In this document: positions 1 through 52,152 of the stretch, one piece after another
Position numbering within the stretch: the stretch's first letter is position 1
Layout: the number at the start of each line of letters is the position of its first letter
DNA from: Candidatus Omnitrophota bacterium
Lineage (GTDB): Bacteria; Omnitrophota; Gorgyraeia; 2-01-FULL-45-10
NCBI GenBank assembly: GCA_028715345.1
Contig: JAQUSB010000010.1
Coordinates: forward strand, 1-55,538
Direction: 5' to 3'
Length of the DNA: 55,538 nucleotides
Notes under the pieces: model-generated
What the model saw: the letters and a program-made list of their open reading frames with translations, nothing else
The model's database searches: none
What the model was told of the DNA's origin: nothing
Translations under genes and position numbers: made by a program

Positions 1-117
1 TTTTTAACCATGTAAAAATCGCACTCCGTAAATTTGCCCGGACCCTGCCGGGCAAATTTAAGGCCTTGCTCACCACTTCGCCACATCACATTCTTGCAAT
101 GGACGAAAAATTTTTCG
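1..117 (+). repeat. Structured dispersed repeat, copy A (left arm cut by window edge)
   Basis: This is the 5'-truncated copy of an element found again near 12.94-13.11 kb and 20.12-20.28 kb. The remains of hairpin 1 are visible at 1-24. Hairpin 2 is complete: 13 bp pairing 29-41 with 48-60 around the 6-nt loop ACCCTG. The right closing arm (CCTTGCTCACCAC and onward) follows, and a terminal palindrome CGAAAAATTTTTCG lies at 104-117. Compared with copies B and C, hairpin 2 carries a paired A:T to T:A exchange (positions 33 and 56), so the stem is kept although the sequence changed. No ORF in the element is credible. It lies just upstream of the unknown gene at 143. The gene to its left is outside the window. 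Confidence 0.85.
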
Positions 118-838: not shown

Positions 839-873
839 GATTTAAAATTTTTCGTGTAACGCAACTTCGATAC

Positions 874-10915: not shown

Positions 10916-11883
10916 ATAAAACGCAAGTCAACCGTATCCTGGTGATAACGCTTAGCAACATCGGGGATATCATACTTACGACGCCTGTTATAAGGACCCT
11001 TGCCACGGAATTTCCCGGCGTTAGGATAGACGTTATGGTAGGGCCCCAGGGGCGGGGTATATTCGAAAAAGACCCGAGTATCTTCAAGGTCATAATTTAC
11101 GATAAACACATTCCTATAAGCGAGAAGAGGCGTCTCCAGATAAAGCTGAAGAAGTTGCATTACGATCTCGTAGTGGATATAAGGAATACGGTGTTCCCGA
11201 TGTTGATCGCCCCCAAATACAGGACCTCGACCATACAAAGATTTCCGCGTTCCGTCATACATAGTAAGGCGCGGCATCTGCACCGCCTTAAGTCCCTGGG
11301 GATCGAAGGCACCGAGAGCCTGGCGTATATCCACATCACGAAAGAGGACGAGGAGTATGTCGACACTCTCATAAAAGAACGCGGCATCACCGACCCGATA
11401 GTCGTGGTGAATGCCGGATCGAAAAGCCACCTGAAGAGGTGGGCTGCGGACGGTTTTGCCGAGATATCGGACAGGCTCATATCGGATTGCAAGGCGAGCG
11501 TCGTATTGGTGGGATTGATGGAGGACGAGGCGATAGTGAAAGAAGTGGCCTCAAAAATGAAACAGAGGCCGCACATCCTGGTCGGTAAAACTAATATCAG
11601 GCAGCTGGCGGCGCTTTTAAAACGTTCCAGGCTCCTCGTGACCAACGACAGCGCGCCTCTCCATTTAGGATGCGCGGTGGGGGTGAAAGTGGTGGCGTTA
11701 TTCGGCCCGACCGACGCACGCAAATACGGCCCGACCGGGGAATTCGACGTCGTGATAAGCGAGAAACTTTCCTGCGCGCCGTGCGAAAAAGCGGAATGCG
11801 TCCGGAACTACGAATGCATGAAACTGATAACACCCGACGCGGTCTTCGATGCCGCTAAAATGATAATAGACGGATATGAATAA
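10906..11883 (+). CDS. GT9 heptosyltransferase family protein
   Basis: A 325-residue GT9 enzyme: ILVITLSNIGDIILTTPVIR at the N-terminus, VVVNAGSKSHLKRWAADGF in the middle, LLVTNDSAPLHLGCAVGVKV then LFGPTDARKYGP near the donor site, and a Cys cluster CAPC-x4-C-x5-CM at the end. The ATG overlaps the preceding gene by ten bases and the end overlaps the next GT9 gene by eight. It clearly resembles its neighbours at 9887 and 11876, so the three look like a duplicated set that diverged for successive core-sugar additions. The substrate is probably an ADP-heptose or a related sugar nucleotide. Confidence 0.9.
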   Translation: MQVDKTQVNRILVITLSNIGDIILTTPVIRTLATEFPGVRIDVMVGPQGRGIFEKDPSIFKVIIYDKHIPISEKRRLQIKLKKLHYDLVVDIRNTVFPMLIAPKYRTSTIQRFPRSVIHSKARHLHRLKSLGIEGTESLAYIHITKEDEEYVDTLIKERGITDPIVVVNAGSKSHLKRWAADGFAEISDRLISDCKASVVLVGLMEDEAIVKEVASKMKQRPHILVGKTNIRQLAALLKRSRLLVTNDSAPLHLGCAVGVKVVALFGPTDARKYGPTGEFDVVISEKLSCAPCEKAECVRNYECMKLITPDAVFDAAKMIIDGYE

Positions 11884-12940
11884 AAACGCTGTGCAGAAGA
11901 ACGGGAACCATAAAGGCAAAAGAGTCCTGATAGTCAGGCTCGACAGGATAGGCGACGTGCTCTTGTCGACGCCCGTCATAAAAGCGGTGCGCGAGGTCTG
12001 CCCGGACGGCTACATAGCTTTCATGGCAAGGCGGCACGCTTATGACATATTGGCCGGAAACCCGTATCTCGACGAGATAATAATATACGAGAAGGAGGGG
12101 CGCGATAAAGGTTTGTTGAAGAACATTAAATTCATAAGGTCGTTGCGGCGTAAAAGATTCGACATCGCGCTGGTCCTCCATCCCACGAAAAGGACGCACC
12201 TTCTTATGGCACTGGCCGGGATCCCGGAAACCGTCGGGTACAATAAAAAGTGGGGCTTCTTACTGACGACGCGTATCCCTCACACTAAACAGTACGGCCT
12301 GAAGCACGAAATAGATTATGTCCTCGATATATTGCGCTACACGGGCCTTGAACCTAAAGACAGAACTCTCTATATGCCCGTAAACAGCGTATCCGAGCGC
12401 AACGTGGACAGTATATTCGAAGAGAACGGTATAAAGAAGGGCGACCTATGTATCGCGATAAATCCCGGCGCGAGCTGCGTCTCAAAGAGATGGGGCGTGG
12501 AAAAATTTGCGAAGGCGGCCGCGGCCCTTGCGGAAAAGTACAAAGCAAAGGTGATCATTACAGCCGGCGCGGACGATAAGAAGCTGGGCGACAAAATCTC
12601 GTCGCTATTGCACGATAATTGTTTAAATCTCTCCGGCAGGACGAGCGTCGCCGATGTCGCGAGCGTTTTGCGCAGGGTGAAGCTATTCGTATCGAACGAT
12701 TCCGGGCCCGTTCATATAGCGTGCGCCGTCGGAACGCCGGTGATAGCGATATTCGGCCGGAGCGACCGCGGCCTTTCTCCCGGAAGATGGGGGCCGGTCG
12801 GTAACCGGGATATAATCCTGCATAAAGATGTGGGCTGCGTCGAATGCCTGGCGCACAATTGCCGGAAGGGCTTCAAGTGCCTAGAGGCGGTAACTGTCGC
12901 CGAGGTCCTGCAGGCGGCAGACAAAATTCTGGGCAGGTGA
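11876..12940 (+). CDS. GT9 heptosyltransferase family protein
   Basis: A 354-residue GT9 enzyme and the last gene of the core-LPS operon. It carries VLIVRLDRIGDVLLSTPVIK at the N-terminus, INPGASCVSKRWGVEKFA in the middle, LFVSNDSGPVHIACAVGTPV, then IFGRSDRGLSPGRWGP (differing from the FGPT form in its neighbours), and the terminal Cys cluster CVEC-x4-C-x5-C. A Lys-rich N-terminal extension of about 15 residues precedes the fold. The TGA stop overlaps the left arm of structured repeat copy B, whose first two bases are the GA of this stop codon. Confidence 0.9.
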   Translation: MNKNAVQKNGNHKGKRVLIVRLDRIGDVLLSTPVIKAVREVCPDGYIAFMARRHAYDILAGNPYLDEIIIYEKEGRDKGLLKNIKFIRSLRRKRFDIALVLHPTKRTHLLMALAGIPETVGYNKKWGFLLTTRIPHTKQYGLKHEIDYVLDILRYTGLEPKDRTLYMPVNSVSERNVDSIFEENGIKKGDLCIAINPGASCVSKRWGVEKFAKAAAALAEKYKAKVIITAGADDKKLGDKISSLLHDNCLNLSGRTSVADVASVLRRVKLFVSNDSGPVHIACAVGTPVIAIFGRSDRGLSPGRWGPVGNRDIILHKDVGCVECLAHNCRKGFKCLEAVTVAEVLQAADKILGR

Positions 12941-13112
12941 AATTTTCGCTGCGGCGTTTGGATGCGCTGTGTCGAGTGGTTCGCAAGGACGTGCGATTTT
13001 TAACCATGTAAAAATTGCACTCCGTAAAATTGCCCGGACCCTGCCGGGCAATTTTAAGGCCTTGCTCACCACTGCGCCACATCGCATACCTGTGGCGGGA
13101 AGCGAAAATTTC
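12939..13112 (+). repeat. Structured dispersed repeat, copy B (complete)
   Basis: This is a complete copy. The outer stem pairs 12939-12950 (GAAATTTTCGCT) with 13101-13112, 12 bp perfect. A middle stem pairs 12962-12971 with 13078-13087 (one C-T mismatch) and GTGGT..GCAAGG (12976-12988) with CCTTGC..ACCAC (13060-13072). Inside lie hairpin 1 (12991-13020; one G-T pair) and hairpin 2 (13026-13037 with 13044-13055, loop ACCCTG). Relative to copy C, the outer stem differs at two base pairs and the middle stem at one, each changed on both sides. It occupies the left half of the 343-base gap 12941-13283. The rest of the gap holds a duplicated arm (GGGAAGCGAAAATTT at 13097 and 13155), a small GAAA-loop hairpin (13131-13142) and a terminator. 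Confidence 0.88.
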
Positions 13113-13193
13113 GCGGCCCGTGAGGCACAATCCCGAAAGGGAATTCCTTGCAGTGGGAAGCGAAAATTTACAACGGAGAGGATTATAGACAAC

Positions 13194-13222
13194 AAAAAAG
13201 ACCTCAAATTCGGGGTCTTTTT
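13194..13222. terminator. Intrinsic terminator (probably bidirectional)
   Basis: AAAAAGACC at 13195-13203 pairs with GGTCTTTTT at 13214-13222 around a 10-base loop. The A-tract on one side and the T-tract on the other allow termination in both directions. It ends the core-LPS operon after repeat copy B. Confidence 0.75.
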
Positions 13223-18628: not shown

Positions 18629-19588
18629 ATGTCGAAAAATATAGCCAAAGAAGTTCTGAAGATCGAGCGGGACGCTTTGACCAGCCTTATAGGCAGGGTC
18701 AATTCCGATTTTAACGATGTAATAAACGTAATATGCGGGATCAAAGGGCGTGTTATTGTCACCGGTATGGGTAAACCGGGCTTCATAGCGCAGAAGATGT
18801 CGGCGACCTTATCCTCCACCGGTACGCCGTCGTTATATCTTCACCCGGCGGAAGCGCTTCACGGCGACCTCGGCCGCGTCACAAAAGACGACCTGATAGT
18901 CGCGCTTTCGAATAGCGGCGAGACGGAAGAGGTGGTCAAGCTTTTACCCATCATAAAAAAGATCGGCGCTAAGCTCATAGCCATGACCGGCAATGTCCGA
19001 TCGACGCTCGCGAAATTCGCGGACTATACCATAGACGTTTCGGTAAAAAGGGAAGCATGCTCTTTAGGCCTGGCGCCGACGTCCTCTACGACGGCAATGC
19101 TCGCGATGGGCGACGCCATAGCGATAGCGCTGCTTGAGAAAAAAGGTTTCAGGGAGAAAGATTTCGCGCTCTTTCACCCGGGCGGCATTCTCGGCAAACG
19201 CCTTATCCTTAAAGTGGCCGACATAATGCGCAAAGGCTCCGCCAACCCGGTGGTGGGCGAAGACACTCTTGTTAAAAAAGTGCTCGTCGCGATAACGAAA
19301 GCCCGCGCAGGGTCAGCGAGCGTGGTCGATCATAAGGGACGGCTGGTCGGGATATTTACCGACGGCGATTTGAGGCGGCATGTAGAAAGCGACCCGCGCC
19401 TTGTCGAGCGAAAAGTCAAAAATGTAATGACGAAGAACCCGTCGTGTATAAATAAAGAAAAACTGGCAGCCGAAGCTTTCGACATCCTGCGCTCGAAGAG
19501 GATAGACGAGCTTCCGGTCGTGGACGAGAAGAAACGCCCTATAGGGCTCCTCGATGTCCAGGACCTCTTGAAGGCGGGCCTCGTATGA
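18629..19588 (+). CDS. kdsD: Arabinose-5-phosphate isomerase (KpsF/GutQ family)
   Basis: A 319-residue isomerase turning ribulose 5-phosphate into arabinose 5-phosphate, the first Kdo step. An N-terminal SIS domain has VTGMGKPGFIAQKMSATLSS and HPAEALHGDLGRV, then LSNSGETEEV. Two CBS domains follow (from about residue 205, MRKGSANPVVGEDT, and about 272, VMTKNPSCINKEKL), which commonly act as nucleotide sensors. The ATG follows the kdsA stop by four bases without a ribosome site. It overlaps kdsC by four bases. Confidence 0.95.
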   Translation: MSKNIAKEVLKIERDALTSLIGRVNSDFNDVINVICGIKGRVIVTGMGKPGFIAQKMSATLSSTGTPSLYLHPAEALHGDLGRVTKDDLIVALSNSGETEEVVKLLPIIKKIGAKLIAMTGNVRSTLAKFADYTIDVSVKREACSLGLAPTSSTTAMLAMGDAIAIALLEKKGFREKDFALFHPGGILGKRLILKVADIMRKGSANPVVGEDTLVKKVLVAITKARAGSASVVDHKGRLVGIFTDGDLRRHVESDPRLVERKVKNVMTKNPSCINKEKLAAEAFDILRSKRIDELPVVDEKKRPIGLLDVQDLLKAGLV

Positions 19589-20115
19589 TCCCTTTAGAAA
19601 TTCTCGAAAAAGCTAAACTTGTCAAAGCTCTCATAGTCGATATCGACGGCGTCATGACCGACGGCCGTATCGTGTACAGCGGCTACGGCGAAGAGCTTAA
19701 ATTTTTCGATGTACAGGACGGGCTCGGCATGACACTGCTGAACAGGGCGGGCATCAAAACCATAATAATAACGGCCAAAAAATCGAAGATCGTAAAACAC
19801 AGGGCGCGTGATCTCAAAGTCGCGAAGGCCTATCAGGGATTTATCGACAAGACCATTCCTTTTAACGACGCCCTTAAAACTTTCGGCCTTAAGCCGGAAG
19901 AGATATGTTTCGTAGGCGACGACCTTATCGATATCCCGGTCCTGAAGCGTGTAGGGTTCGCCGTAGCGGTCCCGAATGCCGTCGAAGAGGTCAGAAGCTC
20001 CGCGCATCTGGTTACCTCGAATAAAGGCGGCCGCGGCGCCGTCCGGGAGATCTGCGATCTCATCCTCAAAGCCCAGAACAAGTGGGACCTCGTCACTTCC
20101 AAGTATTTCCAGTAG
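19585..20115 (+). CDS. kdsC: Kdo-8-phosphate phosphatase
   Basis: A 176-residue HAD-superfamily phosphatase releasing Kdo from Kdo 8-phosphate. The nucleophile motif is VDIDGVMTDG (Asp pair near residues 18-20). TAKKS is motif II and carries the Lys, and CFVGDDLIDIPVLKRVGFAV is the C-terminal metal-binding Asp motif. The family is capless and tetrameric; length is normal. ATG overlaps kdsD (ATGA). The TAG stop is directly abutted by the left arm of structured repeat copy C, so this is the end of the operon. Confidence 0.95.
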   Translation: MIPLEILEKAKLVKALIVDIDGVMTDGRIVYSGYGEELKFFDVQDGLGMTLLNRAGIKTIIITAKKSKIVKHRARDLKVAKAYQGFIDKTIPFNDALKTFGLKPEEICFVGDDLIDIPVLKRVGFAVAVPNAVEEVRSSAHLVTSNKGGRGAVREICDLILKAQNKWDLVTSKYFQ

Positions 20116-20280
20116 AATTTTTCGATGCGATAGAATGTGCTGTGGCTCGTGGTTCGCAAGGGCGTGCGATTTTTAACCATGTAAAAATCGCACTCCGTAA
20201 AATTGCCCGGACCCTGCCGGGCAATTTTAAGGCCTTGCTCACCACTGCGCCACATCACATTCCTAAGAAATCGAAAAATT
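20116..20280 (+). repeat. Structured dispersed repeat, copy C (complete, best preserved)
   Basis: A 165-base element with a cloverleaf-like plan. The outer stem pairs 20116-20126 with 20270-20280 (11 bp). The middle stem pairs GAATGTG-C-TGTGGC (20133-20146) with 20249-20262, with one C-T mismatch. The inner closing stem pairs GTGGT..GCAAGG (20149-20161) with 20233-20245. Hairpin 1 pairs 20164-20175 with 20182-20193 (12 bp, loop ACCATG). Hairpin 2 pairs 20198-20210 with 20217-20229 (13 bp, loop ACCCTG). It begins at the base after the kdsC stop. It encodes nothing credible and contains no transposase, so it is either a non-autonomous mobile element or a 3'-end RNA structure. Confidence 0.9.
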
Positions 20281-50522: not shown

Positions 50523-50541
50523 GAAAGGGGTTGTGTACGTA

Positions 50542-52152
50542 ATGTCAGAAGAAAAAACCAACAACGTAGAAGAAGCGCAAAAAGAGGAGGCAAGTCAGCC
50601 CAAAAAGATGAGCTTCGCCGAATTATACCAGCAGAGCATCGTTGATATAAAGGAAGGGCAGATCGTAAAAGGTAAGATCATAGCGGTAAATCCCAAGGAT
50701 GTGGTGATCGACATCGGTTATAAGTCCGAAGGTACGGTCAACATCTCCGAATTCTCCGATCCTGAAGCGGTAAAGATCGGCGACGAGGTGGATGTTTATC
50801 TCGAGTCGAAAGAGGACGAGAACGGCATGGTGGTGCTCTCGAAACAGAAAGCGGAGCGCGCCGTCGGCTGGGAAATGGTCATATCGCGCTACGGCGAAGG
50901 CGATATGGTCGACGGTAAAGTTTCCAAGAAGGTCAAAGGCGGCTTCATGGTCAATATCGGCGTCGAAGCCTTCTTGCCCGCAAGTTTGGCGGCCATGAAA
51001 GGGTTCGGCAACCTGAATCAGCTCATCGGCCAGACTTTCCCGTTCAAGATCGTGAAGATAAACAAAGCGAGAAAGAATATAGTCGTGTCGCGTAAAGACG
51101 TGCTCCAGGCGCAGAAGGACGAGGACAAGAAGAAGGTCTTCGATGCGCTGCAAAAGGGCGCTATCGTTAACGGTATCGTCAGGAACATAACCGACTTCGG
51201 CGCGTTCGTAGACCTGGGCGCCGGCATGACGGGCCTTTTGCACATAACGGATATGAGCTGGGGGAGGGTTTCCCACCCGAGCGAAGTCCTAGCGATAGGC
51301 GATAAGATAGACGTCGTTGTGCTCGATTTCGATAAAGATTCGGGCCGCGTATCATTAGGCCTGAAGCAGAAGACGCAGAACCCGTGGGAGCTCGTAGATA
51401 CGAAATATCCCGTAGGTTCGCGCATAAAAGGTAATGTGGTCAACCTGGTGCCTTACGGCGCTTTTGTCGAGCTGGAAAAAGGGGTCGAAGGGCTTCTCCA
51501 CATATCCGAGCTTTCCTGGACCAAGAAATACGCCAATCCGAACGAGCTTCTCGCGATAGGCGATAAGATAGAAGTCCAGGTATTGGAAGTGGACAAGAAT
51601 AATAAGAAGATATCCTTAGGCTTAAAACAACTTGAGGCCAACCCGTGGATCGGCGTAGAAGAGAAGTATCCGGTAGGGACGAAGGTCAAAGGCAAGATAC
51701 GCAACCTGACCGACTACGGAGCATTCGTCGAGCTCGAGGACGGTATAGACGGGCTCATACACGTTTCGGATATTTCATGGACGAAACGTATAGGCCATCC
51801 CAAGGATGTGTTCAAAAAAGGCGAGAAGGTGGAAGCTGTCGTCCTGGCTGCGGATGCCAATAACAGGCGCATATCGCTCGGGGTGAAACAGCTCACTCCC
51901 GATCCGTGGGATGATATCGCCGTCAAGTATGTTGCCGATACGACCAGGGATGGCAAGATCACGAAGGTGGCAAATTTCGGCCTGTTCGTGGAAATAGACA
52001 AAGACTTGGAAGGGCTCGTTCATATCTCTGAGATACCGCTTGGAGAAGGTGAAAAGCTCGAAGAGAAGTTCAAGGCGGGAGACGACCTGAAAGTGAAGAT
52101 ATTGAAGGTCGATTCGATCCAGCACAAGATCGCTCTTAGCATTAAAATATAG
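50542..52152 (+). CDS. rpsA: 30S ribosomal protein S1
   Basis: A 536-residue mRNA-binding ribosomal protein with six S1 domains, starting at about residues 30, 115, 200, 285, 372 and 460. Domain 3 reads GIVRNITDFGAFVDLGAGMT and domain 4 GNVVNLVPYGAFVELEKGVE; the first two are more divergent, as is usual for the ribosome-binding part. ATG 50542 is about 11 bases after AAAGGGG; an in-frame GTG at 50533 lies too near that site. It is followed by a 19-bp terminator stem. Confidence 0.95.
   Translation: MSEEKTNNVEEAQKEEASQPKKMSFAELYQQSIVDIKEGQIVKGKIIAVNPKDVVIDIGYKSEGTVNISEFSDPEAVKIGDEVDVYLESKEDENGMVVLSKQKAERAVGWEMVISRYGEGDMVDGKVSKKVKGGFMVNIGVEAFLPASLAAMKGFGNLNQLIGQTFPFKIVKINKARKNIVVSRKDVLQAQKDEDKKKVFDALQKGAIVNGIVRNITDFGAFVDLGAGMTGLLHITDMSWGRVSHPSEVLAIGDKIDVVVLDFDKDSGRVSLGLKQKTQNPWELVDTKYPVGSRIKGNVVNLVPYGAFVELEKGVEGLLHISELSWTKKYANPNELLAIGDKIEVQVLEVDKNNKKISLGLKQLEANPWIGVEEKYPVGTKVKGKIRNLTDYGAFVELEDGIDGLIHVSDISWTKRIGHPKDVFKKGEKVEAVVLAADANNRRISLGVKQLTPDPWDDIAVKYVADTTRDGKITKVANFGLFVEIDKDLEGLVHISEIPLGEGEKLEEKFKAGDDLKVKILKVDSIQHKIALSIKI

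Follow-up and report, generated by a model that had tools for sequence, protein, structure and literature searches.

A candidate superfamily of mosaic palindromic repeats at stop codons in one order of Omnitrophota

The window analyzed here, a stretch of 55,538 nucleotides from a Candidatus Omnitrophota bacterium, carries three copies (A to C) of a repeat at 1-117, 12939-13112, and 20116-20280. An earlier note, made by reading the sequence, described them as a cloverleaf whose stems vary by paired substitutions, and explained this by selection on a folded RNA or on a cruciform. The locus therefore raises the question of what kind of element keeps its arms complementary while their sequence changes, and whether RNA or DNA is the molecule that folds.

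The three copies and the nature of their pairing

All three copies were located at these positions, with an identity of 94 to 97% for the 93-nt family D1 and of 92% for the 138-nt family D2; copy A is incomplete, since the contig starts within hairpin 1. The described fold was borne out in copy C, whose plus strand reached -85 kcal/mol against -41.8 +/- 4 for shuffles (z = -10.8). The minus strand was as foldable (z = -10.97 against shuffles), because the element is a near-palindrome. Upon rereading the copies, we also observed the individual substitutions as reported. The paired changes of the outer stem are exact, with AAATTTTCGCT/AGCGAAAATTT (12940-12950/13101-13111) in copy B and AATTTTTCGAT/ATCGAAAAATT (20116-20126/20270-20280) in copy C; a T:A pair of the middle stem becomes C:G in copy B, an A:T pair of hairpin 2 becomes T:A in copy A, and a single G.T pair is found in hairpin 1 of copy B. 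A C-T mismatch that had been called conserved is so in part: 13 of 23 cores of the family have C.T, and it is replaced elsewhere by A:T (seven cores), C:G (two), or C.C (one). As seen in Table 1, copy C abuts a stop codon; copy B begins on the final base of the TGA stop (12938-12940) that ends a heptosyltransferase gene (11876-12940; Glyco_transf_9). The lone terminus at 843 to 854 is a probable element remnant.

Table 1. Positions of the repeat copies, their parts, and neighboring features in the window (type labels as coined in this analysis)
Feature	Position	Strand	Remark
Copy C, whole type A element, outer stem to outer stem	20116..20280	+	structure-model match 20134-20261, 140 bits, E 3.5e-33
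TAG stop of KdsC-like gene (19585-20115), abutting copy C	20113..20115	+	HAD hydrolase families
Copy C outer stem, 5' strand AATTTTTCGAT	20116..20126	+	
Copy C type A middle stem, 5' arm AATGTGCTGTGGCTCGTGGTTCGCAAGGG	20134..20162	+	
Copy C hairpin 1, loop AACCATGT region	20164..20193	+	double-sided change in 7/12 pairs across family
Copy C hairpin 2 with closing pairs	20195..20232	+	double-sided change in 8/15 pairs across family
Copy C type A middle stem, 3' arm CCTTGCTCACCACTGCGCCACATCACATT	20233..20261	+	exact 25-mer of arm in Omnitrophota MAGs only
Copy C outer stem, 3' strand ATCGAAAAATT	20270..20280	+	
Copy B, whole type A element	12940..13111	+	core 12961-13088 at 137 bits (structure model)
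Type B element remnant GGCACAATCCCGAAAGGGAATTCC ... GCGAAAATTT, fused to copy B	13112..13169	+	comparison with L168, L175
Native intrinsic terminator AAAAAAGACCTC-AAATTC-GGGGTCTTTTT	13194..13222	+	conserved in G006-G008 and G013
Copy A, 3' part of type A element	1..117	+	cut at contig start
Lone left terminus TAAAATTTTTCG, partnerless	843..854	+	5 bases past stop of ORF 143-838

Across the 23 cores, pairing is clearly maintained. Double-sided changes occurred in 25 of the 52 pairs, a value reached by none of 500 shuffles, and they filled 91 cells, compared with 27.6 in column shuffles and 0 to 8 when the partner was slid. The earlier note had held that one-sided changes as common as paired ones would speak against its claim; among standard pairs, 4 one-sided cells were found against the 91 double-sided ones. 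Covariation in a conserved fold, as looked for in a structured RNA, is thus present in these 25 of 52 pairs.

Structured RNAs, however, tolerate G.U far better than A.C. Internal departures from standard pairing in 35 copies, under a folding scheme with equal scores for G.U and A.C, comprised 40 G.U and 52 A.C. On a fixed structure, the 23 cores had 5 G.U versus 21 A.C (5 versus 8 by site), and 60 distant members had 58 versus 84; one RNAalifold pair with a high U.G count was an alignment artifact and was left out. None of the three counts has the preponderance of G.U over A.C on a functional strand that marks a structured RNA by this general-knowledge benchmark and, therefore, DNA is the more likely level at which complementarity is preserved. 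Accordingly, the RNA half of the note's proposal fares poorly, with no G.U excess and two strands that fold equally, and folded DNA, whether as a palindrome, a cruciform, or a single strand, is the better fit. Since palindromic DNA can also give rise to strong covariation, such covariation alone is no proof of a structured RNA. Template-switch mutations extend the identity between palindrome arms (PMC3820800) and, by analogy, template switching in the arms of these elements would yield covariation without RNA selection. The comparison of G.U with A.C tells structured RNA from palindromic DNA.

Spread of the family and its concentric modules

BLAST gave 11 matches in the source genome of the window (G000; other G numbers designate relatives, and L numbers individual copies or loci). 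Across 26 genomes of the family, three relatives had 18, 19, and 23 matches, and four others had 1 to 4. Among GTDB contigs, an exact 25-mer of the 3' arm occurred only in metagenome-assembled genomes (MAGs) titled Candidatus Omnitrophota. A covariance model, suggested earlier as a check and built from the 23 cores, matched 19 of the 27 genomes of the order, one from another family. Distant members retain the plan 5' arm, GGGACG, hairpin 1, CTCGG, hairpin 2, ACGCCC, 3' arm, although the sequences of their arms and hairpins largely differ. In agreement with the remark that no named family has this plan, Rfam returned no match at gathering or relaxed thresholds. Phage, plasmid, E. coli, and viral-contig collections gave zero matches to the element, and no account of such repeats in Omnitrophota was found in a literature search.

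These data are MAGs throughout, with genome-wide copy counts taken from sequence searches, and palindromes break metagenome assemblies, as at the contig end with which the window starts. Palindromes caused contig ends or scaffold gaps that lie inside them at window position 1, at the start of G000:C30, in G000:C47, and as NN gaps in G011 and G012. Copy numbers are therefore probably underestimated, and some junctions are possibly misassembled. Apparent hairpin-less copies in G011 and G012 were rejected as such NN gaps; L010 of the source genome, which lacks both hairpins in a stretch free of NN, may reflect a true deletion or an assembly error.

In the concentric scheme that we coined together with type labels A to C, a shared outer stem, TAAAATTTTTCG...CGAAAAATTTTA, surrounds one or more concentric middle stems that end in a two-hairpin core. 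Type A arms, type B arms (GGGATTGTGC.../...GCACGAATCCC), A nested within B (L056, L039), and B nested within A (L081-L084) are all enclosed by one AAATTTTTCG outer stem. Even by itself, the terminus TAAAATTTTTCG is enriched (39 matches versus 2 reversed controls in G011) and encloses different interiors. One 77-nt core sequence is enclosed by A arms in G012 and, in identical form, by B arms in G000, which are different species. Within genomes, core identity is 0.86 to 0.92, whereas the spacer from the terminus to the A arm differs from copy to copy (0.45 to 0.65), and therefore the history of the inner unit is separate from that of the outer stem. Swapping an entire shell would alter both arms together, which we infer to be simple on folded DNA and awkward on a linear duplex.

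We also observed that another palindromic family, type C (CAGATGGCGGAACTTT...), often lies 3' of type A, separated from it by a short conserved linker (TACYGGGGAG.GAGC.AG), as though the pair made up one composite unit. This arrangement was seen in the right flanks of copies from G011 (L036, L043, L045, L052), G012 (L058, L061, L065), G013 (L085), and G000 (L009 and L010).

Orientation at stop codons and the sites of insertion

The copies are strongly polarized relative to genes. This rule of stop codon and sense orientation is absent from the earlier note, as are the shared outer terminus, the swapping of concentric modules, and the spread across the order. With the strand of each copy set by the element itself, and with open reading frames rather than annotated genes as the basis of the counts, 35 of 54 copies have the stop of an upstream ORF within -12 to +6 of their left end, compared with 4 of 52 that have one in this range of their right end. 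Distant members likewise favor the sense side, with 43 versus 8 having a stop within 110 nt. The binomial p values are 3e-7 (35 versus 4) and 7e-7 (43 versus 8), copies being taken as independent, which they are not. In addition, the orientation of the hairpin 1 loop is conserved in 36 of 37 copies. The strong polarity and the conserved loop orientation suggest that one strand matters, something that a purely symmetric DNA palindrome would not need. The sense bias could reflect an insertion target that has an orientation of its own, or else selection against copies that lie reversed in mRNA. In the remaining copy, L063 of G012, the loop is the reverse complement, ACATGGTT instead of AACCATGT, as if flipped, possibly an assembly effect.

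Because of this polarity, the main rival is a structured 3'-UTR RNA, in which the plus strand would be cotranscribed with the upstream gene, and the cloverleaf would protect, process, or regulate mRNA ends or intercistronic expression. Copies in sense orientation 3' of stop codons, strong covariation, and junction and loop sequences conserved order-wide all favor such an RNA, and transcripts of ERIC and Correia repeats, which offer precedents, are cleaved by RNases (PMC3049150, PMC10969869). Type A also adjoins 11 groups of orthologous genes in two or three genomes each, with opposite orientation in 2 of the 11 groups. Its presence at orthologous genes of different genera speaks for the RNA as well, the elements being more persistent there than neutral mobile repeats would be expected to be. 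Nevertheless, G.U does not exceed A.C, relatives gain or lose the site and carry different palindromes, or no palindrome, at that stop codon, whole shells are swapped and either can enclose the other, and Rfam has no match. We thus regard a 3'-UTR RNA as unlikely, though a serious contender, and hold it no more probable that the pairing is under RNA selection and that copies persist because they are functional.

The heptosyltransferase locus offers filled and empty sites for comparison. In G006, G007, and G008, the stop of this gene is located at, or immediately 5' of, an intrinsic terminator and the conserved GTAGGTGATAGGCC landmark, and there is no element. In G000 and G013, palindromes stand between the stop and the terminator, which is retained downstream. 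Since the terminator is kept in these two genomes and the element is absent from the three relatives, the element is an insertion there, and copy B looks inserted between stop codon and terminator, with the terminator not replaced. At the KdsC locus, type A occurs in the source genome only.

The same locus bears on a further reading, that the element is the intrinsic (or bidirectional) transcription terminator of the upstream gene, as could be supposed from its place between a stop codon and the next gene and from the one weak terminator-like match that copies B and C contain on the plus strand. A native terminator, however, follows copy B and is conserved in element-free genomes (the only locus where this can be checked), the internal match is not above shuffles (means of 0.7 to 0.9), and the outer stem is A+T-rich and followed by only about four T. 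A terminator role is consequently very improbable.

When 300 nt past the heptosyltransferase stop were compared (L178-L199), many genomes of the family carried different, unrelated-looking, large multi-hairpin palindromes (type C and others), and other genomes carried no palindrome at this stop.

Candidate mobilizers and known repeat systems

We favor, with a probability of about 0.52, the explanation that the copies belong to a new superfamily of MITE/BIME-like mosaic palindromes that are dispersed and non-coding and insert behind stop codons in one Omnitrophota order. The units would arrive by insertion 3' of stop codons and into existing palindromes. Hairpin tips would be exchanged as whole units, most simply with the DNA as a hairpin, cruciform, or single strand. 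The arms may stay matched through DNA-level copying between them (quasi-palindrome template switching), to which selection for a foldable DNA substrate possibly adds. This explanation is supported by the multicopy occurrence with genome-specific cores. The elements also have the features of a MITE, with terminal inverted repeats, a length below 500 bp, no transposase gene, an intergenic position, and multiple copies. TA flanks many left and right ends, where a target duplication would be inseparable from the self-complementary terminus, a close empty strain being absent.

Our searches found no autonomous partner with the ends of the element. Among TAAAATTTTTCG matches, no paired termini spaced more than about 320 nt apart were seen, and contigs break at repeats. 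An IS630-type transposase with a TA target was rejected, as DDE_3 is absent. A REP/RAYT transposase was rejected as well: none of six Y1 loci has a RAYT gene flanked by repeats or element motifs within about 1.5 kb, and the presence of Y1, found in 21 of the 26 genomes, does not track the elements, with no Y1 match in the element-bearing G020 and G021 (MAGs that are possibly incomplete). Finally, no integron integrase scored above the 265-bit cut-off in the genomes searched, which held generic tyrosine recombinases far below it, as did all control genomes.

These searches bear on another alternative, that a dedicated recombinase uses the element as a folded single-stranded substrate, in the manner of integron attC sites or the ends of IS200/IS605, with insertion in fixed polarity and exchange of tips. 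Fixed polarity at stop codons, pairing at the DNA level, tips exchanged as a unit, and conserved ends around variable tips are all consistent with such a substrate, but no candidate enzyme tracks the elements (the integrase matches are below the cut-off, and Y1 is absent from G020 and G021), and arrays were not seen. We consider it rather improbable, and just as doubtful that one enzyme acting on the folded strand inserts palindromes with fixed polarity behind stops, swaps tips, and recombines shells order-wide. Any mobilizer of these elements would itself be new, an enzyme that works on folded DNA.

In two species, type A copies lie directly or close behind genes matched by the model for tyrosine recombinases, XerC/D-like (L005 on G000:C30 and L056 on G012:C1); the two positions probably represent an orthologous site.

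Like integron attC sites, which are imperfect palindromes directly behind a stop, with fixed orientation, conserved ends, a variable tip, and a folded single-stranded form, the element is a palindrome right behind a stop with fixed orientation, conserved ends, and a variable tip. Unlike in attC, its ends TAAAATTTTTCG/CGAAAAATTTTA are not attC core sites, and copies are scattered behind single genes without cassette arrays. Mycobacterial MIRUs are intercistronic repeats at stop codons with one orientation relative to transcription, and are not palindromes with covarying stems; the element shares their stop-codon position and single orientation and differs by its covarying palindromic stems.

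The element resembles REP/BIME sequences in consisting of palindromes in intergenic mosaics, mostly 3' of coding regions. It differs by its length, 130 to 250 nt (100 to 250 nt when judged against the REP definition) against the 20 to 40 bp of REP, and by its two-hairpin core, and the GTAG foot of REP is not consistently present. Read on the minus strand, hairpin 1 leads into CGTCC, which is reminiscent of the CGTC tag of CGTC-tagged palindromes (PMC3733652). This CGTCC at the foot of hairpin 1 is nearly invariant in the 23 cores; the element itself is a larger branched structure.

BOX, ERIC, and Correia/NEMIS MITEs share with the element a short, non-coding, strongly folded, and intergenic nature, inverted ends, and tens of copies. 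Pneumococcal BOX repeats are also modular and, like ERIC and like the element itself, able to supply stop codons (PMC3049150, PMC10969869); BOX repeats supply those of 36 CDSs without evident truncation (PMC3049150). In contrast with BOX, ERIC, and Correia, the element has a multi-branched core, concentric shells nested in either order, a strong sense polarity, and order-wide structural conservation, with no partner IS identified and no match in E. coli, plasmid, or phage collections. Dispersed palindromes as such are already well known. We file the element under mosaic palindromic repeats, and we have not found its shared outer stem, either-order shell exchange, and order-wide stop-codon orientation described before.

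Two further repeats were observed in the window. Two 20-nt near-palindromes (TTAGTTAACAATTGTTAACT and AGTTAACAGTTGTTAACTAA) lie in the intergenic region at 903-951, before an ORF at 997, and are operator-like. At 51272-51576, within ORF 50533-52152, there is a 44-nt direct repeat whose units are 82% identical and 261 nt apart, which is probably a protein repeat.
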